DNA from: a virus
IMG/VR virus record: IMGVR_UViG_3300046168_000072
Span: 57,276-121,275 of that record
Length of the DNA stretch: 64,000 nucleotides
Direction: 5' to 3' (one strand)
Shown: positions 6,001 through 51,458 of the stretch, in pieces
How positions within the stretch are numbered: the stretch's first letter is position 1
How the letters are laid out: each line of letters opens with the position of its first letter
Program-made: the position numbers and the translations under genes
The notes under the pieces: generated by a model
What the model saw: the letters and a program-made list of their open reading frames with translations, nothing else
The model's database searches: none
Told to the model about the DNA's origin: nothing

Positions 6001-7649
6001 CCAGAATTACCTCCTAGCTCGTCTATAGATACATAAGCAAACATTCCTGGATGATTGCTAGCATTAGGCAAATCGCCCCTTCTTAAATAACTATTCCAAG
6101 ATATTTCTTGCGAAGAAATTTCTCCGCTAATATCAATAAATTCAACACCATCTTCAGTGTTATTAATTCTTAAATATTTACCAGAAGAATTAACATAACT
6201 TGTAGGGGTATCATTTAAGCCTGTAAAATCAACAGAAGGAGAAGGAATATCAACATACTCAACAGCATTCGCGGCATTATTAATTTTTAAAAATTTATCT
6301 GCAGCAAAAGAACTTGGAGTGTCGGAAAGACCAGTAAAAGAAACAAGTCCATTATTGATATCTGCATATTCAATTCCAACATGAGTAGAGCGCAAAAACT
6401 TGTTTGATTCATATCCGCTTGGGGTATCTTTTAATCCAGTAAAGTATTCTGAGCCAGTAAAATTATAAGTGACATCTCCACCTCCAGGAGCAACAGGATT
6501 CCAGGCCAAGGTATTTTGATCGGTGAGTTGTAAATAACCACTCGTAATCGGAGTACTGGGTCTGTCATCAACGTCTTCCAAAAACTTGACGCCTGTAAAT
6601 TCTAGGCCATCTCCAGCTTGATTACCTCTGACAAATTTGACTGAAGTAATATTAGAAGGTGTGTCCGTCAAGCCAGTAAAATCAAAAACTGGATCGTCAA
6701 TAGGGACAAATTCAAGCCCAGTTTCATTCGCTTGCAAGTATTGCCCAGAAACATAACCAGTTGGAAATCCTTGTATGCCAGTTAAATTAAGTCCAGTAAT
6801 TAATTCATAGTTTCCAATGATTCCGCTCGTTAAATTATCATAAGAAGTGTTTGCTTGAAAAGAATTTAAAAGGCTGAGATCTCTTAAGGCCTTGTCTCCG
6901 ATGACTAAATCAGCTTTAGATCTAATACTTTCTAATACATTATAGATAGCATCAAAACTAAAAAAACTTTTGTTATTATATAGGTCTTGGGCCGCTAAAT
7001 AATTTTTAGCAACTAACTGATTTGAAAAATTATATAAATTATGTTCTCCATCAACAACTATTTCATTAAAAAATCGAGCATCATTAGATACAGCAATTGT
7101 TAAATAAGAAGTTGAATCTTTGATATTATTTAAGGCATTAAAAAGATCATCAGGAGTTTTTAAAATTGTTTGAAAATTATCGCTGGCAATATATAAGTCT
7201 TGGCGTACAGGAACAAAATAAACATCTTTAAAATAATAATCTATTCCACCAAAATTAACTATAAAATCATCCCAATGCGACAAAACTGCTGTAACATAAT
7301 TAATTTCAGTATCACGATCATTTAATCCAATAGTCCATGTAACGTCTTTGGTAAAACCAAAAGATGAATATTGCTTGGTTTTTGTTGTATCGCTTGGATT
7401 AGCTGGATTTAAAAAATTAATCCAATCAGTATTTGGTGCTGTTTCTGGAGCTTTAAATTCATCTTTATTAAACTCTTGTAGTATAACACTTGATTGAAGA
7501 GTGCCAATATCACCACTGGAATAATACGGGACTGGATTACCTTCCGAATCTCGAGCGCCAATATTTTCCTGCCCCGTAACCTTTCCCAAATAAAATTTAG
7601 GAATATTAAGAGCAGAATCGGTATTATCGAATCCAGTTATTATAGACAT
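1..7649 (-). CDS. Giant modular tail-fibre/adhesin protein, C-terminus beyond left edge
   Basis: The frame is open from an ATG at 7649 to the window edge, giving at least 2,549 codons with no stop. Residues 1-270 form a unique head beginning MSIITGFDNTDSALNI. About ten copies follow of a fibre repeat of the form FTGLxDTPSSxxGxSGKFLKVN (coding positions about 6680 down to 1990). At least six modules carry SLQEVIDNGxAIYFGGG-like motifs (near 4550, 4150, 2920, 2460, 2075 and 1580). The distal part has LamG/concanavalin-like folds: FTIECWVFVD near 745, DIRISKKAVYTGNFTPP near 335 and FTVEFWIKYD near 30. The LTDTPS repeat is common in tail fibres of T4-like and marine phages; LamG domains bind carbohydrate. 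Its ATG overlaps the stop of the upstream gene (TAATG). The likely role is host-surface or glycan recognition. No frameshift is seen over 7.6 kb. Confidence 0.85.
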   Translation of the reverse strand, partial: MSIITGFDNTDSALNIPKFYLGKVTGQENIGARDSEGNPVPYYSSGDIGTLQSSVILQEFNKDEFKAPETAPNTDWINFLNPANPSDTTKTKQYSSFGFTKDVTWTIGLNDRDTEINYVTAVLSHWDDFIVNFGGIDYYFKDVYFVPVRQDLYIASDNFQTILKTPDDLFNALNNIKDSTSYLTIAVSNDARFFNEIVVDGEHNLYNFSNQLVAKNYLAAQDLYNNKSFFSFDAIYNVLESIRSKADLVIGDKALRDLSLLNSFQANTSYDNLTSGIIGNYELITGLNLTGIQGFPTGYVSGQYLQANETGLEFVPIDDPVFDFTGLTDTPSNITSVKFVRGNQAGDGLEFTGVKFLEDVDDRPSTPITSGYLQLTDQNTLAWNPVAPGGGDVTYNFTGSEYFTGLKDTPSGYESNKFLRSTHVGIEYADINNGLVSFTGLSDTPSSFAADKFLKINNAANAVEYVDIPSPSVDFTGLNDTPTSYVNSSGKYLRINNTEDGVEFIDISGEISSQEISWNSYLRRGDLPNASNHPGMFAYVSIDELGGNSGSAYIAHGNDWVQIFPTVPNFSFSGLVDTPTSYAGASGKFMKVSDDESGIEYANLPDPIVDFTGLTDTPSSFVGHSGKYLQVNAAENSLEFVNPLFGTGSFVGFGGATVLIGLETAQPQQGWNDRQITQLQGHSGIKNLSLSNNEITLPAGKYLINAEGGVFRSKQTRIGIEFTAGDYVGQRFESRSNYAGSIVGNDQGGARGSVKTAVQSQNQMTFKVVSYVGESQSATTFEYAQTDVTVLDLGGDRDILSITGLFDTPTSYVGGSGKFLQVNNSEDAVQYSSLSGQISSQEIDWLAYSTISDLPSASEHHGMFAHVHSEGAAYMAHAGNWEKIYPVNGSSLTFTGLSDTPNVYDDGKILQSTADGLEWVDMPAGGGGGGGSSDVGAAENNSYIKSFIETFTEKVPDAIIVENDNPRVYDLKAVITTQDPHIIQYHNGQQNSDGSSKIFSFIDDVSGSLQNTLTNTNHILHPDDSNLQDIINNGRALYFGGGGSLSGGSLSGGSASSLRVIQDKSNFYTDLPDAIVWPHSPISTEAADRSEAILHLKFVHEPHSTNGVDNDIFYECRDINQGGVFLGFAFNNNSNGDYSQLYSSHTNFQDVPSATNSLKWFIENNRAIYYGGGGGGGEAIIQKGTYTGNSVANNGEQTIDLGFTPVRVEIFGRNDHKAHAIMLKDKPDTFYSWRAIDGSHDTFRTFDTSSIIVQNGFKVANGSNANDTHLNFNGVEFDYYVTTEGSVGGGVGGDSSNYEFCRAQVSSSSSIAHPEADVDLDINQLATDSKNWIHTDTTQNTVGILVPEDGLYDVSFNIRPVTAGNNLWRDNVSFLHTVLQLIKADGTNVLIQETREAKDTGNGTTLNNHLYLDNLSLDQGDFLYLRCRVYSNNTSLSWAIDDNFSFLSVSKSAGGGGGGSVGGIGSDADVIAKSNFSEIIPDKINVPILRGTNLSKIQTRFFTFEGFFGRSTPSELIQYEMNIGGSERYSINFENNANGTWDSYVEVDNSSTSIDFSKIPSAITNKPTLKEFIDANRAIYLGGGSAGGGGSSTFAGLTDTPSTLTEGSGQYLKVSDDGQTIEYVDLPAGGGSGGIGKNLQIIETSNFAGTLPDMIVVKNGLGSPVVGRFYEFSGPQSTDLIKYTFHEYDGHSRMAYFKNDSTGSNAIFNGQFTSENASYYNNATSLQEVIDNGHAIYFGGDGSSSGGSSPISAVNQIQDNIDNIPLIGSGVQIPDAILIKDINATTTNGNDHLIQLDFAAWVTSYNSNGDVTSQQFSYETNNLISKRWYIRFDSVDGSHLSISADQHVRKEFDSIQEYISSGRALYFGAGGGSSTFAGLTDTPSALTEGSGQYLKVSDDGQTIEYVDLPAGGGDGSSPSTGSSLNNNDYIKDFSNFSGELPDSIIIRGAASTLDQVLAGRFYYINGTSSTDQIFYDFLNWRVGFNNDASGTNGSFYNRDSNTLLAGNSTWEFFDGASSLQDIIDNGDAIYYGGSSSSSDGADSVDDITDLPDNPVDGQLVTVGCDLYIGCNGEWVKVGADTVAPPSEAPACVSNLEEYNQYTEYKDQFLADNASTSFSAGLNNQTNIHDFVHDVCLFADSNLNQERNTVVIDETTFKWGMFAGDQNINIRAQAFSGPNIGSCTFKEWRSDLPNFPKTNAQETVFIDRDASITGYFECTLAPDQPNCNQVALHLQPAAGETIADKSDNQHAVTTVGDTVVDNTATLFGGGTMNFDGNGDALSVGDNTTFKWINNYSSPFTIECWVFVDAITTDWLGRRFIPLLSTSAATSSSHGFKLGVNAQGFIFIIYNGSGQNVGVGHIVNDADILNKWVHLAATWDGKTMCLYVDGSQKDTSTPAAVPVNNENSNNMLKIGHQTHSAPANTIPHFDGKMQDIRISKKAVYTGNFTPPANLLANPCGFPGDQPTCSEVDFHLQASSGGTVEDKSDNNRTITNPNNVSNQSFIDNSETLFGESTLFFSTSRLLHFYPANFGSNDFTVEFWIKYDSPITT

Positions 7650-8617
7650 TAGTTATGATATTGAACAGTGAAAGTTACTGATGTGCCTGCAAGCAATCCC
7701 TGACTCGGAGTTTCAAACGGACTCTGATAGTTAAGGACATGCTCTAAATTAACACTCGTTGATGAAGCTTTTTCTAAACGAGCTAAACCATCGCTGCTTG
7801 AAGCGGAATAAGAATCAGGATTAGGATATGTCGATGGATAGTTTACCCAAATATTTCCTTGAGGACTAGAGTTGCTGATAATTGTAAAATCAGTAAATCC
7901 AAAAGCAGATGGACGATAATCAGTTCCACCAATACTTGCCAAGGATTTTTCTAAAGTTGAAATTTCTCCACTAATCGTAATTTGTTGTGTCGTTGGAGCT
8001 GCAGTCGTAGTCGTACTTGTTGTAGTTGTTGGAAAAGCTGTTGTAGTACTCGTAGTTGTTGGAAAAGCTGTTGTAGTACTCGTAGTTGTTGGAAAAGCTG
8101 TTGTAGTACTCGTGGTTGTTGGAAAAGCTGTTGTAGTACTCGTAGTTGTTGGAAAAGCTGTTGTAGTACTCGTAGTTGTTGGAAAAGCTGTTGTAGTACT
8201 CGTGGTTGTTGGAAAAGCTGTTGTAGTACTCGTAGTTGTTGGAAAAGCTGTTGTAGTACTCGTAGTTGTTGGAAAAGCTGTTGTAGTACTCGTAGTTGTT
8301 GGAGCCGCTGTAGTAGTCGGTGCCTGTGTTGTAGGTGCCTGAGTAGTAGGTGCCTGAGTTGTAGGTGCCTGAGTCGTTGGAGTAGCTGTTGTAGTAGTCG
8401 TAGTTATCCCTGGAAAAGCTCCATCAATTATGTGTCCTTGATTATTAACCTGTACAGAAATCACTCCAGCATTACCAGATACGCTAGATATAGAATACCA
8501 TAAATTATTACCGCTCCAAGTGTCAGTAAGTTGTGCGTCAACATACAAGCCAGTCAATGGGAAGTTATTGTTTTCTATTGCTCCTGAAACGTCAAAATAT
8601 AATTGTGTATTGTTCAT
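7649..8617 (-). CDS. Virion fibre protein with FPTTTSTTTA mucin-like stalk
   Basis: This 322-residue protein has three parts: a beta-rich head (about 1-75), a Thr/Pro/Ser stalk (about 75-210) and a beta-rich C-terminal domain (about 215-322) starting near QQITISGEIS. The stalk opens with APTTQ-type pentapeptides and continues as nine copies of a decapeptide FPTTTSTTTA coded by a 30-bp repeat. Such linkers look like O-glycosylated mucin stalks; that reading is inference. It lies between two other fibre genes with almost no spacing. Antisense frames through the repeat are open but are artefacts of the repeat. The exact structural role is unknown. Confidence 0.8.
   Translation of the reverse strand: MNNTQLYFDVSGAIENNNFPLTGLYVDAQLTDTWSGNNLWYSISSVSGNAGVISVQVNNQGHIIDGAFPGITTTTTTATPTTQAPTTQAPTTQAPTTQAPTTTAAPTTTSTTTAFPTTTSTTTAFPTTTSTTTAFPTTTSTTTAFPTTTSTTTAFPTTTSTTTAFPTTTSTTTAFPTTTSTTTAFPTTTSTTTAFPTTTTSTTTTAAPTTQQITISGEISTLEKSLASIGGTDYRPSAFGFTDFTIISNSSPQGNIWVNYPSTYPNPDSYSASSSDGLARLEKASSTSVNLEHVLNYQSPFETPSQGLLAGTSVTFTVQYHN
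8024..8297 (-). repeat. 30-bp tandem repeat, nine units
   Basis: Nine near-identical 30-bp units encode FPTTTSTTTA in the fibre gene. Units differ only by single transitions (for example CGTAG or CGTGG), so the array arose by recent expansion and may change length by recombination. Confidence 0.85.
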
Positions 8618-8629
8618 CTTTAAATTGTT

Positions 8630-10147
8630 TTATTCATTTGATTGGTAATAAATTTCTGTAGAAGTATTTGAAAAGTTTTCGGTAGCAGAACCCTGACCTT
8701 CTTGAGCATGAGTATAATAAGCACGGCTATAATATATTGAAAAATTAGTTGCATCAAAGTTTGGAACAGTATCTCCTTGGCCTGCTACAGCCTGAGTAAA
8801 ATAACCCTGAATAGTAGGCGCCTGAGTCGTTGGTGCCTGTGTTGTAGGTGCCTGAGTCGTTGGAGCTGCTGTAGTAGGTGCCTGTGTTGTAGGTGCCTGA
8901 GTCGTTGGAGCTGCTGTAGTAGGTGCCTGTGTTGTAGGTGCCTGAGTCGTTGGTGCCTGAGTCGTTGGTGCCTGAGTCGTTGGTGCCTGAGTTGTAGGTG
9001 CCTGAGTCGTTGGTGCCTGTGTTGTAGGTGCCTGAGTCGTTGGTGCCTGTGTTGTAGGTGCCTGAGTCGTTGGAGCTGCTGTAGTAGGTGCCTGTGTTGT
9101 AGGTGCCTGAGTCGTTGGTGCCTGAGTTGTAGGTGCCTGAGTCGTTGGTGCCTGAGTCGTTGGTGCCTGTGTTGTAGGTGCCTGAGTCGTTGGTGCCTGA
9201 GTTGTAGGTGCCTGAGTTGTAGGCGCCTGAGTCGTTGGTGCCTGTGTTGTAGGTGCCTGTGTTGTAGGTGCCTGAGTCGTTGGTGCCTGTGTTGTAGGCG
9301 CCTGAGTCGTTGGAGCTGCTGTAGTAGGTGCCTGAGTTGTAGGCGCCTGAGTCGTTGGTGCCTGTGTTGTAGGTGCCTGTGTTGTAGGTGCCTGAGTCGT
9401 TGGAGCTGCTGTAGTAGGTGCCTGAGTTGTAGGCGCCTGAGTCGTTGGTGCCTGTGTTGTAGGTGCCTGTGTTGTAGGTGCCTGTGTTGTAGGTGCCTGA
9501 GTTGTAGGCGCCTGAGTCGTTGGTGCCTGTGTTGTAGGTGCCTGTGTTGTAGGTGCCTGAGTCGTTGGAGCTGCTGTAGTAGGTGCCTGAGTCGTTGGAG
9601 CTGCTGTAGTAGGTGCCTGTGTTGTAGGTGCCTGAGTCGTTGGTGCCTGAGTCGTTGGTGCCTGAGTCGTTGGTGCCTGTGTTGTAGGTGCTATCGTTGT
9701 GGTTGTCGTTGTAGTAGTGACAGGGATAATACCCTCTCTAATGTCTAAATTAACAGTAAAGCAACCTTTCAATAAAGTATATACAAGTGCGTCATCGTTT
9801 CTATGAACAACACTTATGCCATAAAAATAAGTTCCCTCTAATAAATCTTTAGTATCATTATGCAAAAGCACCACACGCGCCTTGCCTTCTGAAGAATTTA
9901 ATAAAGTAATTCCTCCTGAAGTGCCTGTAGGAGGATGCTCACTATCTTTTAAAATAACAGCTTTAGAATCAGGATGAATATCCTTTTTCTTGATTGTAAA
10001 AAATACTAAATAGTTATCTAAATTAAGAGCTTGGCCATCTAAATCAAGATCTAAATCAAAAGAAACAGCATCACCACGATATATCGACAAGCAATCGTTT
10101 AAAGGCTTGACGCATGGTGTGGGGCATGAGTTTTTGATATCAGACAT
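8630..10147 (-). CDS. Virion fibre protein with about 59 APTTQ repeats
   Basis: The protein has 505 residues. The N-terminal domain (about 1-143) starts MSDIKNSCPTPCVK and contains IYRGDAVSFDLDLDLDG, which resembles the beta-sandwich attachment domain of baseplate/BppU-type proteins. A Thr run leads into a stalk of about 59 pentapeptides, mostly APTTQ with interspersed APTTA. The tail (about 447-505) holds two tandem copies of a roughly 26-residue motif, F/YTxAxxGQGxxxxNF..T...IYY. The architecture (attachment head, long Pro/Thr stalk, small duplicated tip) suits a virion spike or fibre. The stalk supplies well over 100 Thr residues that could carry O-glycans; no glycosylation can be seen from DNA. 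Confidence 0.82.
   Translation of the reverse strand: MSDIKNSCPTPCVKPLNDCLSIYRGDAVSFDLDLDLDGQALNLDNYLVFFTIKKKDIHPDSKAVILKDSEHPPTGTSGGITLLNSSEGKARVVLLHNDTKDLLEGTYFYGISVVHRNDDALVYTLLKGCFTVNLDIREGIIPVTTTTTTTTIAPTTQAPTTQAPTTQAPTTQAPTTQAPTTAAPTTQAPTTAAPTTQAPTTQAPTTQAPTTQAPTTQAPTTQAPTTQAPTTQAPTTQAPTTQAPTTAAPTTQAPTTQAPTTQAPTTQAPTTQAPTTAAPTTQAPTTQAPTTQAPTTQAPTTQAPTTQAPTTQAPTTQAPTTQAPTTQAPTTQAPTTQAPTTQAPTTQAPTTQAPTTAAPTTQAPTTQAPTTQAPTTQAPTTQAPTTQAPTTQAPTTQAPTTQAPTTQAPTTAAPTTQAPTTQAPTTAAPTTQAPTTQAPTTQAPTIQGYFTQAVAGQGDTVPNFDATNFSIYYSRAYYTHAQEGQGSATENFSNTSTEIYYQSNE
8803..9693 (-). repeat. 15-bp tandem repeat, about 59 units (APTTQ/APTTA)
   Basis: The array codes pentapeptides APTTQ with scattered APTTA. 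Larger blocks of several units recur (for example near 9060-9240 and 9300-9560), so expansion happened at more than one scale. Every third position varies between a few synonymous bases. Confidence 0.88.
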
Positions 10148-10156
10148 ACCAAGACC

Positions 10157-10566: not shown

Positions 10567-10568
10567 TT

Positions 10569-11633: not shown

Positions 11634-12068
11634 TTATCGCCTTTTACTTGGTATAGCGTAAAAACCAACCACCATAAAGCATAAATCCATGAAAGATGAT
11701 AACATTAAACCGCCTGTCATTTGAACCATCTCCCAATCTTTCGCGCCAAAAACAAAACTAAAAAATCCAAATCTTGCTCCATCTCCTTTAGGAACAATTA
11801 TATCATAACTAATTGTTGGATTGTGTGCATAAAATATCATTAAATAACACATTGTGAATGTGATCGCCATGAATAAAACGCGGCGAGTAACTTTAACGAA
11901 TGGGTCAGAAGCCGTTTCGTTTTGATTTTTGATTAGCGCTTCTAGCATCATATTATCTCTAGCCGCTAAAATCATTTGATCTTGACGTTTTTGCTCTAAC
12001 CAAGCATTAATTAAATTACAGGCCAGCTTAATGCCAGCACCAATGATAGTGTTAATAATAGGACCCAT
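11634..12068 (-). CDS. Small membrane protein, putative holin
   Basis: The 144-residue protein starts with an amphipathic helix (MGPIINTIIGAGIKLACNLI). A charged stretch (about 26-58, EQKRQDQMILAARDN) follows, then two hydrophobic spans at about 66-83 (VLFMAITFTMCYLMIFYA) and 121-138 (LMLSSFMDLCFMVVGFYA), and a basic tail (PSKRR). Short three-helix holins of marine phages have this general organisation, but no diagnostic motif is seen. No endolysin gene is adjacent. It sits between nrdB and the glycan cassette. Confidence 0.5.
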   Translation of the reverse strand: MGPIINTIIGAGIKLACNLINAWLEQKRQDQMILAARDNMMLEALIKNQNETASDPFVKVTRRVLFMAITFTMCYLMIFYAHNPTISYDIIVPKGDGARFGFFSFVFGAKDWEMVQMTGGLMLSSFMDLCFMVVGFYAIPSKRR

Positions 12069-12082: not shown

Positions 12083-13075
12083 TTAATATCCTTCAGATTC
12101 GCTGCAATTTTGCATTTGATCATAGATCCAGGCATATGTTTTTTCAAGACCATCTTCTAATGTAATAGAAGGGGCCCAGCCTAAAACTTCTTTGATCATA
12201 GTGTTGTCGCTATTTCGACCACGAACACCTTGAGGCGCATCAAGATTATAATTTCTTTTTAGTTTAATGCCGCCGATTCCTTCAACAATATCAACAAGTT
12301 GATTGATGGATACCATGCGATCACTTCCAAGATTTAATGGGCGAGAATCACCTTTTTGCCACATCAATTCCATGCCAGTGATACAATCATCAATAAACAT
12401 GAACGAACGAGTTTGCTCACCGTCCCCCCAGATTTCAATTTCATGCTTGCCGCTCATCTTGGCTTCAATAACCTTGCGACAAATTGCAGCAGGAGCTTTT
12501 TCACGACCACCACGCCATGTTCCAAATGGGCCATAGACATTGTGGTAACGACAAGTACGGGAATCGATATTAAAATCTTTTCCGTAATAATAAGTAATCA
12601 ATTCACTAAATAATTTTTCCCAACCATATCCATCATCTGGATTTGCTGGAAATACGTCTGATTCTTTGAGCGCTTGAGATGATTCATCTTTAATCTCAGA
12701 TTGAATTGCAGCTGGATAAACACAAGCAGTAGAGCTATAAAGAACTTCTTTAACGCCGTTATCTCTTGCGGCCATCATCATATGAGTCTGAATTAAAACA
12801 TTTTCCATGCAGAGAGCTTGATTATTTTCGACAAAACCCATGCCGCCCATATTGCAAGCAAGATTATAAATACGATCAACACCAACACTTAAGTTATGGC
12901 AATGATCTTTTTCCTGTAGATTGCAATCTGCATGATTCTCAGCGCCATCAAATGTCTGATACCACATGTCTGAGGGTTTAATATCAGCGGCAACAACTTC
13001 ATGCCCTTGCGCCAATAAATCTTTAACTAAATAACCAGCGATAAAACCGCCTGCTCCTCCAACTAATATTTTCAT
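12083..13075 (-). CDS. gme: GDP-mannose 3,5-epimerase (GME-like)
   Basis: This extended SDR protein (330 residues) closely follows the plant GDP-mannose 3,5-epimerase, which converts GDP-D-mannose to GDP-L-galactose or GDP-L-gulose. The family signatures are present: NLACNMGGMGFVENN, C118 in SSTACVYP, Y150 and K154 in YGWEKL, GPFGTWRGGREKAPAAICRK with the conserved lysine K193, GDGEQTRSFMFIDDC, and GVRGRNSDN near the C-terminus. An NAD-binding GGAGGFIAG loop lies at 6-14. It shares its substrate, GDP-mannose, with gmd at 46.3 kb. It leads the long minus-strand glycan cassette in position but is transcribed from genes to its right. A different NDP-sugar epimerase is possible but less likely, given the GREKAPA and GRNSDN blocks. 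Confidence 0.9.
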   Translation of the reverse strand: MKILVGGAGGFIAGYLVKDLLAQGHEVVAADIKPSDMWYQTFDGAENHADCNLQEKDHCHNLSVGVDRIYNLACNMGGMGFVENNQALCMENVLIQTHMMMAARDNGVKEVLYSSTACVYPAAIQSEIKDESSQALKESDVFPANPDDGYGWEKLFSELITYYYGKDFNIDSRTCRYHNVYGPFGTWRGGREKAPAAICRKVIEAKMSGKHEIEIWGDGEQTRSFMFIDDCITGMELMWQKGDSRPLNLGSDRMVSINQLVDIVEGIGGIKLKRNYNLDAPQGVRGRNSDNTMIKEVLGWAPSITLEDGLEKTYAWIYDQMQNCSESEGY

Positions 13076-13085
13076 TAATTCTTGA

Positions 13086-13640
13086 TTAATTCTTGACTAA
13101 AACAAATTGATCTTTGAAGAGATTGAATTTAGCAATATCAGCAGTATTGGATCTAAACTCGTCTACAGCTTTAACAACACCAAAATCTAGAGTTTCAATT
13201 TGATACTTACCTTCTTGATAATCATCACCACAAATTGCTCCACCAGTAGAAATTTTAGGCCACCACAAGTTTAAATCTTCTTTTACGAATTCATAACTAT
13301 GATCGCCATCAATATAAACCCAGTCAATTGAACCATCTTCAAAAGAACTAGCAGCTTGAGCGGAAAAGTCTCTGATAATATTCACTCTTTCGTTTCCTGA
13401 AAATTTTGCAACAACGCTATCGTGTATAGCATCCATTTCATCTTGTGGCGCTGCATGCCAACGAGCAGGCACATTAGTGATGCTTTTCCATGGATCGATT
13501 AAATGTAACTTTTTAACTGACTTTTTTAAGATTTCAGATGAAAAATCACCTTTCCATACGCCTATTTCTGCGCAAACAGCATCGTTTTTTATAAAGTTAA
13601 GTGTTTGATTCATGTCATATAAATTATATTGGTAGCTCAT
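13086..13640 (-). CDS. Class I SAM-dependent methyltransferase (Methyltransf_24-like)
   Basis: The product is about 184 residues from the ATG at 13640 (MSYQYNLYDMNQ), which lies 1 bp after the upstream stop. A longer in-frame start at 13694 would overlap the sulfotransferase gene. Motifs include the SAM-binding AEIGVWKGDFSSEIL, LHLIDPWK, and the acidic DWVYIDGDHSYEFVKEDL followed by GGAICGDDY. This pattern belongs to the Methyltransf_24 group often found in polysaccharide and surface-glycan clusters. It probably O-methylates a sugar, but the acceptor is unknown. Confidence 0.8.
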   Translation of the reverse strand: MSYQYNLYDMNQTLNFIKNDAVCAEIGVWKGDFSSEILKKSVKKLHLIDPWKSITNVPARWHAAPQDEMDAIHDSVVAKFSGNERVNIIRDFSAQAASSFEDGSIDWVYIDGDHSYEFVKEDLNLWWPKISTGGAICGDDYQEGKYQIETLDFGVVKAVDEFRSNTADIAKFNLFKDQFVLVKN

Positions 13641-13641
13641 T

Positions 13642-15591: not shown

Positions 15592-15599
15592 GGTCAATT

Positions 15600-44453: not shown

Positions 44454-45361
44454 TGTGGTTTGTTGGCCTCTACCCAATCTTCAAATACTTGAACTGGCTT
44501 CCATTTTAATAAAGTTTTAGCTTTTGTATTATCAGCCAAAGTTTCACGAGCTTCTCCAGGTCTAGCATCAATAAAAGTATGTTGACCGTCAACTAATTTA
44601 ACAATATCAAGAACGGAATGATTTTTTCCAGTCCCCAGATTAAACATTTCTCCAATGATTTTTTTGTTTTTTGATTCACCTGCTAAATACATAGCTTCAA
44701 CAATATCTTTAACATATGTATAATCTCTAGTCTGTAATCCATCTCCAACAACAGTCATTGATTTTCCAGCTTCTTTTTGTCTAAAAAATAATCCCACAAC
44801 AGGAGCATAATCCCCAGACAAAGGTTGGCGTTCGCCGTAAACATTGAAAAATCTAAATAAAACAGTTTCAATTCCAAAAAGTTTGGTATACATTTTGCAT
44901 AATTCCTCACAATTAGCCTTGCTTACTGAATATGGATTCAAGCAGTCATTGGGCATATCTTCTCTTAGTGGGATAGGATTAGCTAAACCGTAGCAAGAGG
45001 AAGTTCCAGCAAACATTACTCTTTTACAGTTGTTTAATCTGGCTGCTTGAAGAACATTTACTGTGCCAAGAGAATTATTTTTAACTGCATCAGATGGGTC
45101 TTGAACACAAATCTGAATGCGAGAACGGGCAGCTAAATGAAAAACTAAATCAACTCCTTTAAATAAAGGCTCTAGTTTGTCAAAATCACAAATATCAACT
45201 TTATGATTTTCGGTATCGTCTCTCCAATTAAATTGAGAATTGGCAGTAGAAGATTCATCGTCAACAACGATAACTTCGTGCCCAGCGCTTAATAATCTTT
45301 CAACCAAGTGACTGCCTATAAAGCCAGCACCTCCTGTAACTAAACATTTTTTCTTAGACAT
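44450..45361 (-). CDS. NDP-sugar epimerase/decarboxylase (extended SDR)
   Basis: This 303-residue protein has CLVTGGAGFIGSHLVERLL as the NAD loop, AGTSSCYG, and the YSVSKANCEEL catalytic pair. RFFNVYGERQ and VGDGLQTRDYTYVKDIVEAM follow, all standard for UDP-glucose/UDP-glucuronate 4-epimerase or WbpP-type enzymes. Being next to the dehydrogenase, it may turn a UDP-uronate into UDP-GalA or act on UDP-GlcNAc. It starts 17 bp after the fcl stop. Confidence 0.82.
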   Translation of the reverse strand: MSKKKCLVTGGAGFIGSHLVERLLSAGHEVIVVDDESSTANSQFNWRDDTENHKVDICDFDKLEPLFKGVDLVFHLAARSRIQICVQDPSDAVKNNSLGTVNVLQAARLNNCKRVMFAGTSSCYGLANPIPLREDMPNDCLNPYSVSKANCEELCKMYTKLFGIETVLFRFFNVYGERQPLSGDYAPVVGLFFRQKEAGKSMTVVGDGLQTRDYTYVKDIVEAMYLAGESKNKKIIGEMFNLGTGKNHSVLDIVKLVDGQHTFIDARPGEARETLADNTKAKTLLKWKPVQVFEDWVEANKPQ

Positions 45362-45378: not shown

Positions 45379-46335
45379 CTAACAATCAATTTTCAAATTT
45401 TTTATAAACCAACTGTAAGTTTTTTCGATTCCTTGTTTTAAATCATATTTTTGCCTAAAGCCCATCGATTTTATTCTCGTGTTATCCATTTTTTTTCTGA
45501 ATGTACCGTCTGGCTTTGATGAATCAAATACTACATCGCCTTGATAGCTTAAGCATGATTTGATTATTTTTGTAAGTTCTAATATAGAAACCTCATCATC
45601 TGAACCACAGTTTAAATGCGATACACCTTCGGAATAAACCTTATCTGCTGATACATTTTCTAAACAATAAGTTACAGCTTCAGCCAAGTCGTCAACAAAA
45701 AGAAACTCTCTTAAGGGCTTTCCGCTGCCCCAAACCTCTACAGATTGAGCGCCTGATTCGCGAGCGCAATATATTTTATTTATTAAAGCTGGCAATACAT
45801 GTGATGTTTGTAAATCGAAATTATCTCTTGGTCCATATAGATTGCATGGCATTACGGAATAAAAATCGCTACCATATTGTTTGTAAAAACTTTCGCACAT
45901 TTTAAGTGCAGCTATTTTTGCAATAGCATATGGCTCATTTGTGATTTCTAATTCTCCAGTCAATAAGTATTCTTCTTTAATTGGTATTTTTGCATCACGT
46001 GGATAAATACATGAAGAGCCTAAATTAATTAATTTTCCCACAGAATGATCATGTGATGCTTTTATGATATTCGATGCAATCTGTAAATTATCATATATGA
46101 AATCTGCACGATATGTATTATTAGCTAATATACCTCCAACTTTTGCGGCGCATAAAATAACATAATCTATCTCTTCATTTTTAAAAAAAGTATCAACAGC
46201 TTTTTGATTCAATAAATCAAGATCTTGTCTTGTTCTTGTTGTTATGTTTGTGTAGCCTTTTGATTTTAAATTATCAACAACCGCAGAACCAACCATTCCA
46301 CGATGACCAGCTACGAAGATTTTTTTATCTTTCAC
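45379..46335 (-). CDS. fcl: GDP-L-fucose synthase
   Basis: Fcl (WcaG) performs the epimerisation and NADPH reduction of GDP-4-keto-6-deoxymannose to GDP-L-fucose. The start is GTG 46335, overlapping the gmd stop as GTGA; a longer frame would overlap gmd by 111 bp. Signatures are KKIFVAGHRGMVGSAVVDNL, CAAKVGGILANNTYRADFIY, NLGSSCIYPR, YAIAKIAALKMCESF (YxxxK) and WGSGKPLREFLFVDDLAEA. Length (318) is normal. Together with gmd it forms a complete GDP-fucose pathway from GDP-mannose. Confidence 0.94.
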   Translation of the reverse strand: MKDKKIFVAGHRGMVGSAVVDNLKSKGYTNITTRTRQDLDLLNQKAVDTFFKNEEIDYVILCAAKVGGILANNTYRADFIYDNLQIASNIIKASHDHSVGKLINLGSSCIYPRDAKIPIKEEYLLTGELEITNEPYAIAKIAALKMCESFYKQYGSDFYSVMPCNLYGPRDNFDLQTSHVLPALINKIYCARESGAQSVEVWGSGKPLREFLFVDDLAEAVTYCLENVSADKVYSEGVSHLNCGSDDEVSILELTKIIKSCLSYQGDVVFDSSKPDGTFRKKMDNTRIKSMGFRQKYDLKQGIEKTYSWFIKNLKIDC

Positions 46336-47384
46336 TGAGAGAGTAATTTGTAATCGTTTTCGTACATTTTTTTGACAAGACCCAAGAATCCAGTTTTTCT
46401 TTTCCAGCCCATTTCTTGTTCTGCAAGAGAGCAGTCGCCACATAATTTATGAACTTCTGCAGGGCGATAAAATTTAGGGTTTACCTGAAAAAGTAAATTG
46501 CCATCTTTTGTATAATACTTTTCATTGTCTTCTGTACCCTTGGATATAAATTCTATACCTGCGCATTTTAAACTTTCATCAAGAAATTCTCTAACGCTGT
46601 GCATCTCGCCACTAGCTAATACATAATTTTTAGGCCGCTCTTGATTTAACATCATCCATACGCCTTCCATGAAATCTTCAGCATCAGTCCAGTCGCGCTT
46701 TGCATCGATATTTCCTAATTCTAATATTGGGATTTCTTTTTCCGCTTCAAGCGCATGCTTAATCTTGGCAACGCTATGACTAATCTTACGGGTTACAAAG
46801 TCTAAACCTCTTCTTGTGCCTTCGTGATTGAAAAGCCAGCCTTGTATTGCATACAGACCATAGGACTCGCGGTAAACTCTGACGATATGTCGAGCAGCAC
46901 ACTTTGCTGCGCCGTATGGAGATTGTGGACGCAAAGGATGCTCTTCATTTTGTGGGGTACAAACGACATCACCAAACTCTTCGGATGAACCAGCATTATA
47001 AAAACGACAGTGGGGAGCAAAGCGACGAATTGACTCTAGGATATGAAGGACTGAGTCGGCATCAGTATCCCATGTTTGTATCGGATAATCCCAGCTTCCT
47101 GCCACGAAAGATTGGGCGGCGAAGTTAATAAAGTAATCTGGTTGAATATCAATAATTACATCACGCATACTGTGCGCATCATTCAAATCCATATTGATCA
47201 ATTGGAATCGCGGCTCATTTTCTAAATGCAAAATGTTTTCATGGTTTTTTACGCTTAATCGGCGAACTGCTCCGTAAATCATGAAATCCGTTTTACCAAA
47301 TTCTTCTTGAAATAGCTTTAATAGATAGTCAGCCATATGACTACCGTCTTGACCTGTTACTCCAGTTATAATTATCTTTTTCAT
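46332..47384 (-). CDS. gmd: GDP-mannose 4,6-dehydratase
   Basis: Gmd catalyses the first step from GDP-mannose to GDP-L-fucose or GDP-rhamnose. The ATG at 47384 lies 1 bp after the GT11 stop. The protein (350 residues) has KKIIITGVTGQDGSHMADYL, NFAAQSFVAGSWDYP, NAGSSEEFG, SPYGAAKCAARHIVRVYRES (YxxxK), NHEGTRRGLDFVTRKI and GNIDAKRDWTDAEDF. All are family hallmarks. GDP-mannose must come from the host. Confidence 0.96.
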   Translation of the reverse strand: MKKIIITGVTGQDGSHMADYLLKLFQEEFGKTDFMIYGAVRRLSVKNHENILHLENEPRFQLINMDLNDAHSMRDVIIDIQPDYFINFAAQSFVAGSWDYPIQTWDTDADSVLHILESIRRFAPHCRFYNAGSSEEFGDVVCTPQNEEHPLRPQSPYGAAKCAARHIVRVYRESYGLYAIQGWLFNHEGTRRGLDFVTRKISHSVAKIKHALEAEKEIPILELGNIDAKRDWTDAEDFMEGVWMMLNQERPKNYVLASGEMHSVREFLDESLKCAGIEFISKGTEDNEKYYTKDGNLLFQVNPKFYRPAEVHKLCGDCSLAEQEMGWKRKTGFLGLVKKMYENDYKLLSQ

Positions 47385-47385
47385 T

Positions 47386-48165
47386 CTATAATTGAATCCA
47401 TTCTTGAGGTTTTGTATTAGATGTATCTTCTCTATCGCCAAACCATTGTTTTGGGAATACTACTTTTTTATTTTTATCTTGATTAAGCCATGCACCCATC
47501 CAGCTAAAAGAGCTGTTTGCAATAATATTGTTTTTACATAAACTCATAAATTTTAAATCATTGATATTTGAATTATCTTCCATGAATACCATTTTTTCAA
47601 ATTTAAAATTTTCTTTGCACCAACTTATGTCATCAGAGAATATAAAAAGGTTTCCTTTAGGTTGAATAATATCAAGAGCTTTTTGGTAATAATCAATTGG
47701 TTGAATAGTATGTATATGGGGTACGTTTAAATAATCGCCGCGCCTAACATGTAAAGAACAAGAGTCTTTAAAGTTAAAGTCGTGATCAATATTAAAATCA
47801 ATACAAGATAAGATGTCTTCTCTTATATCTTGTATGTATTTTTCATTCTGCCAATAGCCAACAAAATAATAAGAATACTGATCGTTATAATCAAAATTTA
47901 AATAAGAACGCGGTTCATTAATAACCTGTTGAGGTTTTGATTGAAATTTATTAACAACCTCTTGAGTAATTAGTGGTATTTCTATATTTAATAAATTAGG
48001 TAAACAAAAATCCCTAACGTCAATTCTTTTATCCAGATAATTTTCGTGTTGAAAAAAACTAATATCATAATAAACTTTTGTATTATTTTTTTTAGAAAGT
48101 GAATGACCAAAAGCCCATTGGAATAGTTGATTGCAAAGGCCGCCTTGTATTTTAATTATTATCAT
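47386..48165 (-). CDS. Alpha-1,2-fucosyltransferase-like (GT11)
   Basis: The product is about 259 residues from the ATG at 48165 (MIIIKIQGGLCNQLFQWAFG). It has the GT11 motifs I (HVRRGDY, in CSLHVRRGDYLNVPHI), II (FIFSDDISWCKENF) and III (IIANSSFSWMGAWLNQ). GT11 covers the FUT1/FUT2 H-antigen enzymes and bacterial WbwK/FutC. The gene is directly upstream of gmd and fcl, so its donor is made in the same operon. It overlaps the FkbM gene by 14 bp. Confidence 0.9.
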   Translation of the reverse strand: MIIIKIQGGLCNQLFQWAFGHSLSKKNNTKVYYDISFFQHENYLDKRIDVRDFCLPNLLNIEIPLITQEVVNKFQSKPQQVINEPRSYLNFDYNDQYSYYFVGYWQNEKYIQDIREDILSCIDFNIDHDFNFKDSCSLHVRRGDYLNVPHIHTIQPIDYYQKALDIIQPKGNLFIFSDDISWCKENFKFEKMVFMEDNSNINDLKFMSLCKNNIIANSSFSWMGAWLNQDKNKKVVFPKQWFGDREDTSNTKPQEWIQL

Positions 48166-48802
48166 TATTAAATGTTTTATTGAAGCATACAATGTTTGAA
48201 TATTGATAGTGATCTTCGAAATTTTCTATAGTTGTCATCCCGTTTTTGTTTAAATAAGAAAAGCTATGAAATCCCATTTCTTTTAAATAATTTATAATTT
48301 CAAGTAAACTAATTCCTGCATCTTTGAATGTCCCACCGTATTCGAATTGTATTATTTGAACTATATTTAATCTTTCACCGAAACCTTTTATTACATTAAA
48401 TTCGAAACCTTCAGTGTCTATTTTTAGAAAATTTATTTTATCGATATTATTTTTGTCTACATAGCTTTTTGCAGTTCTTGTTTTAAAGATTTGTACAGAA
48501 CTATTTTTTTTGGTAGTTCCGCTTCTATCAACGAAGGATTGATAATCATCAAAATAGTTTAATTCACACTCTTTATTGGAAAGCCCGAAGTCATTAAAAA
48601 AGCTTTTAGAATTTTTATTCTCCAGATGCTTCAATTGATTCATGAATTTTTTGTTTGGATCAAAGTAATGTACATCGCAGGTACAATTTCTGAATAAACT
48701 GTCATTCCTACAGCCTACATCAAAAACAATAGAAAGATCGCTTTTTATTTTGTTGAAGAAATATAATTCTCCGTTCGTATTTGCATTACAATTATTAAAC
48801 AT
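48152..48802 (-). CDS. FkbM-family methyltransferase A
   Basis: This 216-residue protein has the SAM loop SIVFDVGCRNDSLF and CDVHYFDPNKKF (acidic motif II). The family signature INFLKIDTEGFEFNVIKGFG and IIQFEYGGTF follow. FkbM enzymes O-methylate sugars or polyketides and are frequent in phage and surface-glycan clusters. A short 2-bp gap separates it from the second FkbM gene. Confidence 0.88.
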   Translation of the reverse strand: MFNNCNANTNGELYFFNKIKSDLSIVFDVGCRNDSLFRNCTCDVHYFDPNKKFMNQLKHLENKNSKSFFNDFGLSNKECELNYFDDYQSFVDRSGTTKKNSSVQIFKTRTAKSYVDKNNIDKINFLKIDTEGFEFNVIKGFGERLNIVQIIQFEYGGTFKDAGISLLEIINYLKEMGFHSFSYLNKNGMTTIENFEDHYQYSNIVCFNKTFNNDNN

Positions 48803-48804
48803 CT

Positions 48805-49419
48805 TTATCTAATATACAGGGCGTCACCCCATTCGTATTGAGTCATATAGGTTTCTTTTCTTTCGAATGAAAAATCAGACAAAAACTCATCAATTTCATT
48901 GATTAAGCAGCAGTCTTTGTATATGTAGTTAGTGTTCACTTCGGTATAAATGTATTTTACGGATGATAGGGTGTCGCCGAAACCTTTTAATGCAAGCAAT
49001 TCAGCGCCTTGGATATCTAAATTGATAAAATCAAAATTTTTGATATTAATTGAGTTTTCTCGCATCAAAGTATCCATTCTTTTTGAATTTACTTTTATAG
49101 TTTCGGTTACATGTATTTGTGGATGATGAATCTTATGCAAATGCAAATCTAATATTGAGCTAGATTCTCCATTGTTCGTTAAATTAAAGTTATAAACTTG
49201 ATCGTCTTTATCTAAGATTGCATATTGAAAGATCCTTTCTGAATCAGATATTAATGATTGGTTGTGTTCGACGAGTTTAGGGTTAGCCTCGATCCATATA
49301 ATGTCGTTAATGTTGTTCGCTAAATAACCTTCTCGCTCTTCCATTTTGTGAGCACCAATATGGATAACTCCATTAGGCGATCCATATTTAGATACAATGT
49401 TTGAAAATTTTATATACAT
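48805..49419 (-). CDS. FkbM-family methyltransferase B
   Basis: The 204-residue protein has GSPNGVIHIGAHKMEEREGY as SAM loop, DIIWIEANPKLVEHN as acidic motif II, and NFDFINLDIQGAELLALKGF, a variant of the ID-x-EG signature. KYIYTEVNTNYIYKD follows. Sequence divergence from FkbM A suggests a different acceptor. Its start overlaps the GT2 stop by one base. Confidence 0.87.
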   Translation of the reverse strand: MYIKFSNIVSKYGSPNGVIHIGAHKMEEREGYLANNINDIIWIEANPKLVEHNQSLISDSERIFQYAILDKDDQVYNFNLTNNGESSSILDLHLHKIHHPQIHVTETIKVNSKRMDTLMRENSINIKNFDFINLDIQGAELLALKGFGDTLSSVKYIYTEVNTNYIYKDCCLINEIDEFLSDFSFERKETYMTQYEWGDALYIR

Positions 49420-50060
49420 TATAGTATTTGGCTTATATTAAATGATTTAGTGTTAAAATTACTTTCTTGATGTAGTCTGTGAAGAACTAGGTAATCGGGA
49501 ATGTTATAAAATTTATACTCTTTTCTTATAAGCTTAAGCCAGTAATCATAATCTATTAAGCCGTCTAAAGATTCATCCCACTCTATTCTTAAATCTTTTT
49601 TAAAAATTGCACTGCAGCTAATAATTTGATTAACACCTCCGAGGGAAAGTCTGATAATGTCATCATTTCCTGAAGTAATACTAGGTTGACCTGTAATTTG
49701 ATTGTTTTCGTTTATATATTTACAAAAAGTACCTATGCAATCATATTCATTTGTTAAATATATTTGCTTTTCTAATTTTTGTGGTAGCCAAATATCGTCA
49801 TCATCTTGGGTTGCGCACCAATCATATCTAGCTTCTTTTATTAGTTTGTTGAGGGTTTTAGCTTTACCCTTATCTTCTTTATAGTCGAACACTTTAATCC
49901 TGTCGTCATTATAGGAGCTTACGATATTTTTTGAGGAATCGGTTGTCCCATTAAAGCCGATTAGAAGCTCCCAGTCTTTGAACGTCTGATTAATAATTGA
50001 ATCAATGCTTTGGCTGATATATTTTTCGCCATTGTAAACTGCTAGAAGAATTGAAATCAT
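49419..50060 (-). CDS. GT2 glycosyltransferase
   Basis: This 213-residue protein starts MISILLAVYNGEKYISQSID, has WELLIGFNGTTDSSKNIV and YDWCATQDDDDIWLPQKLEK. The QDDDD site is the DXD metal motif of inverting GT2 enzymes. GLIDYDYWLKLIRKEYKF and YLVLHRLHQESNF complete the fold. It is short but intact, and belongs to the GT6-GT11-gmd-fcl operon. Confidence 0.87.
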   Translation of the reverse strand: MISILLAVYNGEKYISQSIDSIINQTFKDWELLIGFNGTTDSSKNIVSSYNDDRIKVFDYKEDKGKAKTLNKLIKEARYDWCATQDDDDIWLPQKLEKQIYLTNEYDCIGTFCKYINENNQITGQPSITSGNDDIIRLSLGGVNQIISCSAIFKKDLRIEWDESLDGLIDYDYWLKLIRKEYKFYNIPDYLVLHRLHQESNFNTKSFNISQIL

Positions 50061-50740
50061 GATCTAATTTCTTTGTGGTTTTTATCAAGCGCTATAAGCC
50101 TTGGGGTAAATGGAGGTTTTAAGCTTTCTCCATAACAGTAACCTGGATCTAATATTTTCGTTGGTGGATTGTCGATAAAGTATCTATTTATATGAGACTC
50201 GTCGTGCCATATGGCAATGATATCATTATTGTAATCTTGTTGTATATTTTTAGATAAAATTTGAGACATTTTGAGGTACTCTTTCTTGCTGCCCTCCATT
50301 GAAACCTCCAGCAAAATACTGCATGCTCTCAAATTGAGAAACATAAGCTAATGAATTTGGATTTGTTTCTGGAGTTCCACGGCGCCCGTAAAGCCCTGGG
50401 TGCTGCGTAGCAACTCGATCACTTAATATTTCATCGGATACATCATTACAAAACTTCATATCGGCATCACAATAAAATAAATAATCCATATCATTGAAGT
50501 GATGCGAGTTCCTAGAAAAGATTTTTATATCTACCTAAAGTCATCCATGGCCATTCCTTATGAGTCGTATCAATTAGGTTTATTGGTCTAATAGAGCTTG
50601 CTTTAATGGATTTATGATTAGTGAAAATAAAATATTCTACATTTTGATTTGGCAAAAAAATGTTTATCTGCACTAGCCAATAAATCATCTAAGAATGAAA
50701 TATATTTATTTGTAGCGATTATAATGAGGCCTATCTTCAT
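50057..50740 (-). CDS. GT6 (ABO/alpha-1,3-Gal(NAc)-transferase-like) enzyme, three frameshifts
   Basis: The ATG at 50740 (MKIGLIIIATNKYISFLDDL) lies 1 bp after the upstream stop. Single-base insertions at an A7 run (50654-50660), a T5 run (50522-50526) and a CCC run (50292-50294) break the frame. Removing them restores the order: NVEYFIFTNHKSIKA, EWPWMTLGRYKIFSRNSHHF, DYLFYCDADMKFCNDV with DXD, ATQHPGLYGRRGTPE, QYFAGGFNGGSKKEYL, IIAIWHDESHINRYF, PTKILDPGYCYGES, and ALDKNHKEIR at the end. These are the diagnostic GT6 blocks of human ABO and GGTA1. The restored length is about 227 residues. GT6 transfers Gal or GalNAc alpha-1,3 to galactose, typically next to alpha-1,2-fucose. Confidence 0.85.
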
Positions 50741-50741
50741 A

Positions 50742-51458
50742 TCAGTTAGACGCTAAGATAAAATCAATACATTTGTGTTCTATAGAATTAACTCCTTGCC
50801 TCTTATTGCATGTAACATTGTTTGAGATATAACTGAAATCATTATGCCAAACTGTATTATGCTTATCGAAGTGTATCTTTACGCCAGCTTCTTTAAGGCG
50901 CATAGAGAATTCTACATCTTCATTATGGGTAAAACCTCTAAACATGCCGTAAAAAGGGATATCATTATCCCAACATATTTTATTTAACAAAGACCTTTTG
51001 CTTACTGAGAAAGCTCCGCTTTGATAGAAAGTCACATCTTCTGATTCAAAGTCATAATCGACCATCATATGCGAAGGTAAGTAGGTAGCTCTATCCCAGT
51101 ACCTGCTTCCATCAGGCAGTAAAACTTTATTGCCCATAATTTGCCAGTCAGGGTTTTTTTTACAAAAATTCTTGAATTTAACTGCCCAATCTACATCAAA
51201 TATTATATCATCATCGCAGTGAACAAGTATATCTCCAGTAGTATTTTTGGTGCCTATGTTTTTTCTTGCGCCCAGGAATTCTTTCTTCTCCTCATCGCTA
51301 ACCGCATTTACATTCAGGCTGGACAGGTCAGGTATATTATTCCCGACAACGCATATTTCGTGATCGAGTTTATTTTTGCATGTTCGATTTATTGAATTTA
51401 TGCAATCAATTAGTTTTTCAGGCTTATCCCCAATGGTTAATATTACAAAAGATATCAT
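50742..51458 (-). CDS. GT2-like glycosyltransferase, first gene of the operon
   Basis: The product is about 238 residues from the ATG at 51458 (MISFVILTIGDKPEKLIDCI). DILVHCDDDIIFDVDWAVKF carries the acidic metal site. FYQSGAFSVSKRSLL and FRGFTHNEDVEFSMRLKEAG give the acceptor and ED catalytic blocks. A GGGAG sequence precedes the start, but the predicted transcript begins only about 5 nt before the ATG. It opens the minus-strand glycan operon that continues to 43.6 kb. Confidence 0.83.
   Translation of the reverse strand: MISFVILTIGDKPEKLIDCINSINRTCKNKLDHEICVVGNNIPDLSSLNVNAVSDEEKKEFLGARKNIGTKNTTGDILVHCDDDIIFDVDWAVKFKNFCKKNPDWQIMGNKVLLPDGSRYWDRATYLPSHMMVDYDFESEDVTFYQSGAFSVSKRSLLNKICWDNDIPFYGMFRGFTHNEDVEFSMRLKEAGVKIHFDKHNTVWHNDFSYISNNVTCNKRQGVNSIEHKCIDFILASN

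Follow-up and report, generated by a model that had tools for sequence, protein, structure and literature searches.

Why would a bacterial virus carry tens of kilobases of genes for building a glycan, and where would that glycan be placed? This question is raised by the last 64,000 nt of an IMG/VR virus record (IMGVR_UViG_3300046168_000072), comprising bases 57,276-121,275 at the end of a 121,275-base record whose remainder was also analyzed. This whole stretch is called the window below, and its positions are used unless stated otherwise. Between positions 12083 and 51485 lies a cassette of genes for sugar-nucleotide synthesis, glycosyl transfer, methylation, and sulfation; all cassette genes described individually here are on the minus strand. 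The original prediction paired this cassette with long threonine- and proline-rich stalks in other proteins of the window, and viewed the combination as a mucin-like coat that the phage makes for its own fibers. We find that the cassette is real and unusual, but that reading it as a mucin coat went too far. What can be observed directly is the enzyme families and their genome context, and from them we infer the substrates and the product.

Sulfation enzymes are repeated within the cassette. Six sulfotransferase domains had been proposed, and five genes exceed the Pfam cut-off for Sulfotransfer_2 (PF03567): 13642-14229 (E = 3.8e-17), the N-terminal part (residues 21-201) of a 436-amino-acid (aa) open reading frame (ORF) at 17018-18328 (2e-5), 26002-26640 (9.4e-15), 30759-31379 (4.3e-20), and 33929-34615 (2.7e-17). 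A pattern search for the 5′ and 3′ motifs that we take to define binding of 3′-phosphoadenosine 5′-phosphosulfate (PAPS) located both sites in four of these five genes, including 13642-14229, and the 3′ site only in 30759-31379. The sixth candidate, 33139-33945, is 78-90% identical in 12 relatives. It matches Sulfotransfer_3 at an E value of 0.15 only, its fold model reaches a predicted local distance difference test (pLDDT) score of 62, and a fold search with it returned no match at E ≤ 0.001.

The same machinery extends across the viral lineage to which the record belongs. Searches with CysQ, a gene described below, yielded eight related contigs, and searches with gene 33139 yielded 11 loci, of which eight lie in records not already found. 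With the window's own record, the lineage sample amounts to 17 records and 1.52 Mb, including some near-duplicates. Sulfotransfer_2 is present in all 17, with 90 matches or 59 per Mb, and the number of genes is smaller because some matches share one reading frame. Each of the eight relatives found by CysQ has between two and 11 matches, and each of the eight found with gene 33139 has between one and five.

No Sulfotransfer_2 match was found in 50 virus records with poly-Thr proteins, nor in 50 virus records chosen by an unrelated ATPase motif; no control genome was positive in either search, and the same family did match in the lineage records. The poly-Thr sample represents 50 tested records of 80 listed stretches (78 distinct contigs), among at least 120 viral stretches with the Thr-rich pattern, and the ATPase-motif sample represents 50 of 53 stretches. 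Among 17 metagenome-assembled genomes (MAGs) of the Opitutales type, which resemble the likely host discussed below, two carry the family, with two matches in ~39.8 Mb (locus L078 excluded). In the phage collection, a tblastn search with gene 30759 reached three records, holding one, one, and two Sulfotransfer_2 matches, and the family otherwise appears sparse there.

CysQ hydrolyzes 3′-phosphoadenosine 5′-phosphate (PAP), the by-product of PAPS-dependent sulfotransferases. A CysQ gene lies elsewhere in the window's record and scores 232.2 bits against the NCBI curated cut-off of 228.8. Other genes of this record beyond the window include those for an inorganic pyrophosphatase and a nucleotidyltransferase resembling RfaE domain II, and locus L004:10455-11279 encodes a fusion of a domain resembling adenosine 5′-phosphosulfate (APS) kinase with a nucleotidyltransferase-like domain. 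The APS kinase match is partial (47.5 bits in Pfam, 42 of 138.7 in NCBIfam), and because it is weak on NCBIfam, we do not claim that the phage makes PAPS; the fusion could make an unusual activated group instead of PAPS. Copies of the fusion are 77-96% identical in eight relatives, and homologs at 38-40% are found in Stenotrophomonas, Xanthomonas, and Clavibacter phages. CysQ, the pyrophosphatase, and the fusion all occur in 8/8 relatives found by CysQ. A sulfatase was considered as a general partner of this machinery and rejected, as the family is present in one of 17 records; in that record (G006), it lies in the variable interior of the cassette (PF00884, 8e-52; record positions 68801-70186, locus L039).

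The sugar-nucleotide enzymes first read from the window were also borne out. What had been called a GME-like gene (12083-13075) strongly matches GDP-mannose 3,5-epimerase (GME; structure 8sg0, 322.6 bits, E = 3.5e-95), and its Cys and Lys motifs, which we presume to be catalytic, are kept in the window and in 10/10 relatives with at least 60% identity. The block farther along includes gmd for GDP-mannose 4,6-dehydratase (46332-47441; PF16363, 3.2e-102), an fcl-like GDP-L-fucose synthase gene (45379-46443; NF047922, 440 bits, under the 500-bit cut-off), a UDP-sugar dehydrogenase of the UDP-glucuronate type (UGD, 43623-44477; PF00984, 1e-24; TIGR03026, 1.8e-50, 171.9 of 189.8 bits), and an NDP-sugar epimerase/dehydratase with many PDB relatives (44450-45361; PF01370, 4.6e-61). 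Fucosyl transfer is represented by a NodZ-like (GT23-type) gene (32255-33142; PF05830, 1.2e-15; NodZ structure 2hhc, 2.2e-11) and a GT11-like gene (47386-48192; PF01531, 2.2e-27). Several methyltransferases had been predicted, and Pfam confirms four (13086-13694, PF13578, 1.4e-19; 30088-30753, PF13847, 1.4e-8; and the FkbM genes 48152 and 48805 within 48152-49419, PF05050, 4.6e-14 and 2.4e-15). A polysaccharide pyruvyltransferase is encoded at 28308-29399 (PF04230, 7.3e-16). The enzyme families thus support the earlier idea of machinery for an elaborate anionic glycan, which would be sulfated and could contain uronate and fucose.

A core of this cassette is shared by 13 records in about eight to nine distinct groups. 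It consists of genes 32255 (NodZ-like), 33139, 33929, 34608, 35456, and 36388, NrdA/NrdB, and the gmd-fcl-epimerase block. UGD and GME are also present where the contig extends; UGD was not found in G008, and gmd lies past the end of G009. The conserved-frame genes at 32255-37038 are 62-95% identical across the 13 records, and this identity, together with the GME motifs kept in 10/10 relatives, indicates selection. The interior, with GME at its edge, reaches to the NodZ-like gene; in the ten records with both markers, its size ranges from 17 to 33 genes. In the window it comprises 27 genes, of which 14 lack a homolog (at least 50% identity) in the 12 other core records and eight have one in at least eight of them. 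A conserved frame with a variable interior is the pattern of O-antigen loci and is also reminiscent of chlorovirus glycans. It suggests, in serotype-like fashion, a core held in common and outer sugars that differ by strain.

The lineage was placed mainly through a 194-kb relative, G003. Its 4557-aa ORF is read as a tape measure, and its terminase-like gene has matches in 76 phage records, chiefly from Bacillus and Lactococcus phages (all 15 that were listed have Gram-positive hosts), with the best-ranked match at 23% identity over 90% of the length among 50,697 phage records. The tape-measure-like ORF and the distant terminase match therefore point to a large tailed-phage lineage that is poorly represented in the phage collection. 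No terminase was identified in the window's own record, for which no dedicated search was made, and NrdA was rejected as a placement marker because the family is too widespread.

Evidence on the host comes from a DUF1501 protein (L004:11343-12623; record positions 51343-52623) with a Tat-like N-terminus by eye and homologs in G003, G004, G006, G007, G009, and G010. The phage proteins are 64-74% identical to those of MAGs from Opitutales and other Verrucomicrobiota, and at most 41% identical to the remaining listed proteins, which are mostly from Planctomycetota. A tree of 46 rows (input of 80 loci, 41 offered and 39 kept) groups 7/7 phage copies with 17 Verrucomicrobiota (support 100/100) and places one phage copy within the Opitutales MAGs (99/98). 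The G009 copy looks separately acquired. This placement suggests that the host is likely an Opitutales bacterium (Verrucomicrobiota), probably marine, and the phage itself is probably marine, judging from that host and from the likeness of its cassette to those of cyanophages. We take DUF1501 to be a family of the sulfatase/alkaline-phosphatase clan, and a periplasmic role for the protein as a phospho- or sulfo-hydrolase is possible.

The cassette was originally thought to have no described counterpart of this scale, but precedents exist. Large lipopolysaccharide (LPS) clusters of unsettled function are present in the cyanophages P-SSM2 and S-SSM7, and cyanophage S-SCSM1 carries consecutive gmd, fcl, and GME genes together with NodZ, an alpha-1,2-fucosyltransferase, and five glycosyltransferases, a set that its authors read as serving cell-wall synthesis and modification (PMC9602691). 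The LPS and cell-wall clusters of cyanomyoviruses share gmd, fcl, GME, and several glycosyltransferases with this large tailed phage, and S-SSM7 matches its GME at 42%. In the phage collection, 160 records encode proteins that match GME at E values up to 1e-5, a count that takes in other epimerases and whose best match is at 43%; gmd has matches in 240. Because of the S-SCSM1 set and these widespread matches, the sugar-nucleotide part of the cassette is of a known kind, and because published cyanophages carry such sets, the enzyme families imply no tie to animal mucins. Sulfation is different: P-SSM2 and S-SSM7 have no Sulfotransfer_2 match, compared with one to 11 per record here (S-SCSM1 was not profile-searched). 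Moreover, this lineage is not a T4-like cyanomyovirus by the G003 terminase, its likely host differs too, and neither its NodZ-like gene nor gene 33139 has a match in the phage collection.

Chloroviruses and mimivirus resemble this phage in encoding their own glycosyltransferases and nucleotide-sugar enzymes. Chloroviruses have gmd/GMER and at least eight putative glycosyltransferases, and assemble glycans in the cytosol with a conserved core and virus-specific outer sugars. They and mimivirus are eukaryotic viruses with proven glycans, whereas the glycan of this phage is predicted; the word “sulfotransferase” is absent from the main text of two reviews of these viruses, whereas sulfotransferases are present in this phage. 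For mycobacteriophages, Freeman and colleagues reportedly described in 2023 a virion glycosylation with a few transferases and no sulfation; PMC12619734 cites that work for glycans on mycobacteriophage capsid and tail-tube proteins. Metagenome studies include virus-encoded sulfotransferases among auxiliary metabolic genes (PMC10829341, PMC8290583, PMC13079714), in those accounts as gene categories rather than as a repeated set in one glycan cassette. Stenotrophomonas phage DLP6 shares with this lineage both Sulfotransfer_2 and a homolog of the APS-kinase-like/nucleotidyltransferase fusion; unlike here, the Sulfotransfer_2 match is single and no glycan cassette is annotated within 15 kb. A limited search of the open-access literature found no description of a phage glycan cassette with multiple sulfotransferases. 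What is new here is the repetition of sulfotransferases in one glycan cassette, its accompaniment by a phage-encoded CysQ, its variation in the manner of serotypes, and a different phage-host pair.

As encoded, the pathway looks soluble. The Bac_transf initiator family was found in 0/17 lineage records with 9/14 control genomes positive, WecA/MraY-type initiators not being part of the search. ORFs of at least 80 aa with three or more hydrophobic segments number 15/1692 in the 17 records versus 10/119 in host-type loci. The hydropathy scan, run without exporter profiles, found no multi-span protein among the window's cassette ORFs and none between GME and the NodZ-like gene in the ten records having both. 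Given the lack of Bac_transf and of multi-span cassette proteins, it is plausible that the acceptor is cytosolic, for example a virion protein; use of lipid-linked intermediates borrowed from the host would be compatible as well.

Our tentative preference, to which we give slightly less than an even chance, is that the cassette encodes a soluble pathway and that, much as chloroviruses do, the phage attaches the resulting glycan to its virion proteins within the cytosol of the host. In this scheme, gmd and fcl would convert GDP-mannose to GDP-L-fucose, GME would convert GDP-mannose to GDP-L-galactose, and the UDP-sugar dehydrogenase would supply a uronic acid. The NodZ-like fucosyltransferase and the other transferases would build the chain, which the methyl-, pyruvyl-, and several sulfotransferases would cap, while CysQ would clear PAP and the pyrophosphatase would clear pyrophosphate. 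The product would be a sulfated glycan with L-fucose, probably L-galactose, and a uronic acid, attached to virion proteins in the cytosol.

Several points weigh against this proposal or against the breadth of the evidence behind it. Neither an acceptor protein nor an initiating protein glycosyltransferase was identified in the analysis, and counting hydrophobic segments is a crude measure. A small conserved membrane-type protein (11634-12068) is encoded immediately outside the cassette, in the interval from NrdB to GME; it has homologs in ten relatives, and the G003 homolog has three hydrophobic segments. Gene 33139-33945 is unproven as a sulfotransferase. The eight records found with it are not an independent test of the cassette because they were chosen on the cassette itself, and CysQ, the pyrophosphatase, and the fusion are in 0/8 of them, which may reflect fragments. 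Kinship also reduces the sample, with G032 lying within G033 (99.9%), G031 within G034 (99.1%), G031-G035 forming one close group, and G030 overlapping G009. Absences are provisional because no record is known to be complete, and the host assignment is based on one gene family.

The strongest alternative, which we consider possible at distinctly less than even chance, is that the cassette remodels the surface polysaccharide of the host by way of host lipid-linked intermediates and exporters, and thereby blocks rival phages or grazers. Such a role is what the authors of the P-SSM2, jumbo cyanophage, and S-SCSM1 studies propose for their own clusters, and it agrees with the O-antigen-like frame and variable interior. 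Sulfated surfaces are also possible in the host phylum, as a Verrucomicrobiota isolate of the Kiritimatiellae is described as producing sulfated exopolymers (PMC7356697). Set against host-surface remodeling are the missing Bac_transf family (0/17), the absence of a multi-span membrane protein from the window's cassette, and the presence of Sulfotransfer_2, the one sulfotransferase family searched there, in just 2/17 likely-host MAGs. For exclusion alone, tens of kilobases of cassette would also seem large.

The biology of the phylum supports opposite readings, depending on whether sulfated polysaccharides are eaten or made. Members of the Verrucomicrobiota are described as specialists on fucosylated, sulfated algal polysaccharides (PMC8857213), and it is conceivable, though improbable, that a coated virion imitates an algal sulfated fucan or galactan and serves as bait for the polysaccharide-binding and uptake machinery of the host. 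If so, variable outer sugars and sulfation would track differing host preferences.

A mucin-like coat, in which Thr residues of the APTTQ and FPTTTSTTTA stalks would be the main sites of O-linkage for the glycan, now seems quite improbable. Thr-rich proteins were counted at a threshold of at least 13 Thr in 40 residues. Repetitive ones number four in the window's record and six in G003, 13 of the 17 records have none, and G004 and G006 each have one borderline, non-repetitive match. Among the 13 core records, stalks occur in two (the window's record and G003), ten have no Thr-rich protein, and G006 is borderline; a search for relatives with the cassette and without Thr-rich structural genes, named beforehand as the refuting one, thus found them. 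Core records above 100 kb have stalks in two of seven cases, and the five that lack them (G006, G008, G009, G028, and G029) all carry a homolog of a 975-aa gene from a PHROG tail family (37660-40587; phrog_15433, 1.9e-52; no Pfam). Sulfotransfer_2, already noted as absent from the 50 poly-Thr records, is absent from both APTTQ-pattern virus records as well. Stalks and cassette do occur together in this record and in G003, and GT2 genes are somewhat commoner in poly-Thr records (16/50 vs. 9/50, p = 0.165; 10/11 vs. 6/11 at 80 kb or more, p = 0.149), a trend that favors the original prediction and reaches significance in none of the three size classes compared. The failure of the link is strong but not final, the records not being known to be complete. 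Stalk and cassette in this window are best read as two separately inherited features. Of the suggestion that the phage decorates its own virion, the virion part stays plausible on the missing Bac_transf and multi-span proteins, and the Thr-stalks fail as its target; in records that have them, they may serve as an acceptor, but the cassette does not require them as such.

The Thr repeats themselves are real. They are not due to chance but are tandem repeats at the DNA level, with 30-bp units scoring 550 and 1028 and 12-bp units scoring 144. The protein at 7649-8617 (minus strand) has eight exact copies of FPTTTSTTTA, rather than nine, with nine FPTTT and four APTTQ units, and no homolog among 16 relatives. 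Its neighbor at 8630-10147 (minus strand) has 51 APTTQ among 58 APTT units, where about 59 APTTQ had been counted, and a homolog in G003 only (58%) among the relatives compared. Tracts of 13 and 43 Thr also exist, in 55454-56278 (minus strand; Thr13 at its end; phrog_16570, function unknown) and 61147-62490 (plus strand), although both lie outside the range of 7649-51458 assigned to the proposed coat system. The single PHROG match of the latter, to “major tail protein,” was set aside as it covers the Thr-rich end. The four proteins had been called virion-type, a label that is mostly inference. Gene 8630-10147 is possibly baseplate-attached. Its N-terminus has no significant database match and no PDB sequence match, its fold model is of low confidence (pLDDT 52), and its weak fold matches are headed by immunoglobulin-type domains, with phage baseplate chains reaching only ranks 13, 15, and 16. 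A BppU-like baseplate domain there remains a lead only, as 11 pattern stretches in relatives gave no confirmed case. Long open frames opposite the repeats (62235-62477 and 8777-9748, poly-Val and Cys/Arg-rich) are read as repeat artifacts.

Modification of phage DNA or nucleotides by sugars or sulfate groups is very unlikely. Phage glycosyltransferases are known to glucosylate DNA, and one metagenome paper connects these enzymes, along with phage sulfotransferases, with the modification of nucleotides or proteins. DNA hypermodification is nevertheless disfavored because the thymidylate-synthase family, which includes dCMP and dUMP hydroxymethylases, was found in 0/17 records with 9/14 control genomes positive, and several sulfo-, methyl-, and fucosyltransferases would exceed the need. 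Scarcely credible is the view, put forward in the literature on LPS genes of cyanophages, that the cassette is mostly nonfunctional acquired “stuffer” DNA, which fits several frame-broken window genes and a GT6 match to the C-terminal part only, but not the 62-95% identity of 32255-37038 across 13 records or the GME motifs kept in 10/10.

The remaining cassette genes fill in this picture. Family searches of 47 window ORFs, ten of them also against PHROGs, support 15 glycosyltransferase-type genes (11 above Pfam cut-offs, two by weaker Pfam matches, and two by PHROGs), two of which (53517 and 56891) lie outside the cassette. About 24 such domains had been counted, a number neither reached nor excluded because about a dozen cassette genes have no family match. 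The six families named at the outset, GT6 (C-terminal part), GT11, NodZ/GT23, GT31-like, GT47/RXYLT1-like, and GT92-like, are all supported. The GT31-like galactosyltransferase (14929-15597; PF01762, 3.4e-5) is barely above the cut-off, as the C-terminal part of a nucleotide-diphospho-sugar transferase (16319-16600; PF03407, 9.2e-6; ~256 aa in four relatives) is also above its own. Further transferases are a GT2/galactosyltransferase-like gene (18321-19118; PF00535, 8.9e-23; PF02709, 2.7e-11), whose two families we take to be shared with GT27, no GT27-specific test having been made; 19805-20335 (phrog_1962, 4.9e-7); the RXYLT1/GT47-like 20504-21175 (PF24785, 7.5e-10), with no homolog among 16 relatives; the GT92-like 24173-24811 (PF13704, 1.1e-6; PF01697, 4e-6); the nucleotide-diphospho-sugar transferases 25266-26027 (PF03407, 3.8e-15) and, weakly and under the cut-off, 29399-30091 (PF03407, 2.9e-4); the GT2 gene 49419-50060 (PF00535, 2.7e-25); the GT6 gene 50057-50344, a short ORF matching profile positions 233-312 of 313 (PF03414, 7e-17); and the GT2-type 50742-51485 (PF13641, 1.1e-6). 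On the plus strand outside the cassette are 53517-54599 (phrog_2170, 2.3e-17) and 56891-58735, with a DUF4214 domain (PF13946, 1.1e-6) and a weak glycosyltransferase group 1 match (PF00534, 8.4e-4, under the cut-off).

An RmlD-like sugar reductase (31382-32251; PF04321, 4.1e-25; rmlD 59.8 bits, under the cut-off) has distant phage matches only. The conserved-frame genes 34608, 35456, and 36388 (34608-37038) have no significant family, with 35456 weakly GT2-like (E = 0.041), and a PDB search with the first two gave no meaningful match. Inside the cassette, a 163-aa gene at 37166-37657 matches no family in Pfam; it and the 37660-40587 tail gene both have homologs in relatives without Thr-stalks. 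A GHKL-ATPase-like gene (22641-23915; PF13589, 2.9e-5, barely under the cut-off) has no obvious tie to glycan synthesis, and its homologs in ten relatives (71-89%) are mostly about 574-590 aa, longer than here. In the variable interiors of two relatives, G003 93912-94976 and G006 54929-55921 appear UDP-galactopyranose mutase-like by eye. Two overlapping frames at 14229-14932 are probably a single gene, ~234 aa in five relatives, and no family was found for it or for an intact relative. This gene, 16319-16600, 22205-23915, 51952-52526, 53102-53520, and 59897-60633 are shorter or split here compared with single longer frames in relatives, as is the GT6 part at 50057-50344, which covers the C-terminal quarter of its profile. 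These differences reflect sequencing or assembly indels, or genuine decay.

The function of the “LPS clusters” of marine phages has been unsettled since the cyanophage genomes were described, and the present lineage contributes a version of them that is distinctive in its chemistry and open to testing. Its conserved GME, NodZ-like, and Sulfotransfer_2 genes are convenient enzymes for assay. If the product is placed on host cells, infection would make a sulfated polysaccharide. If it is placed on virions, this would be a bacterial virus with a chlorovirus-like sulfated glycan coat, with effects on receptor recognition, charge, and decay.

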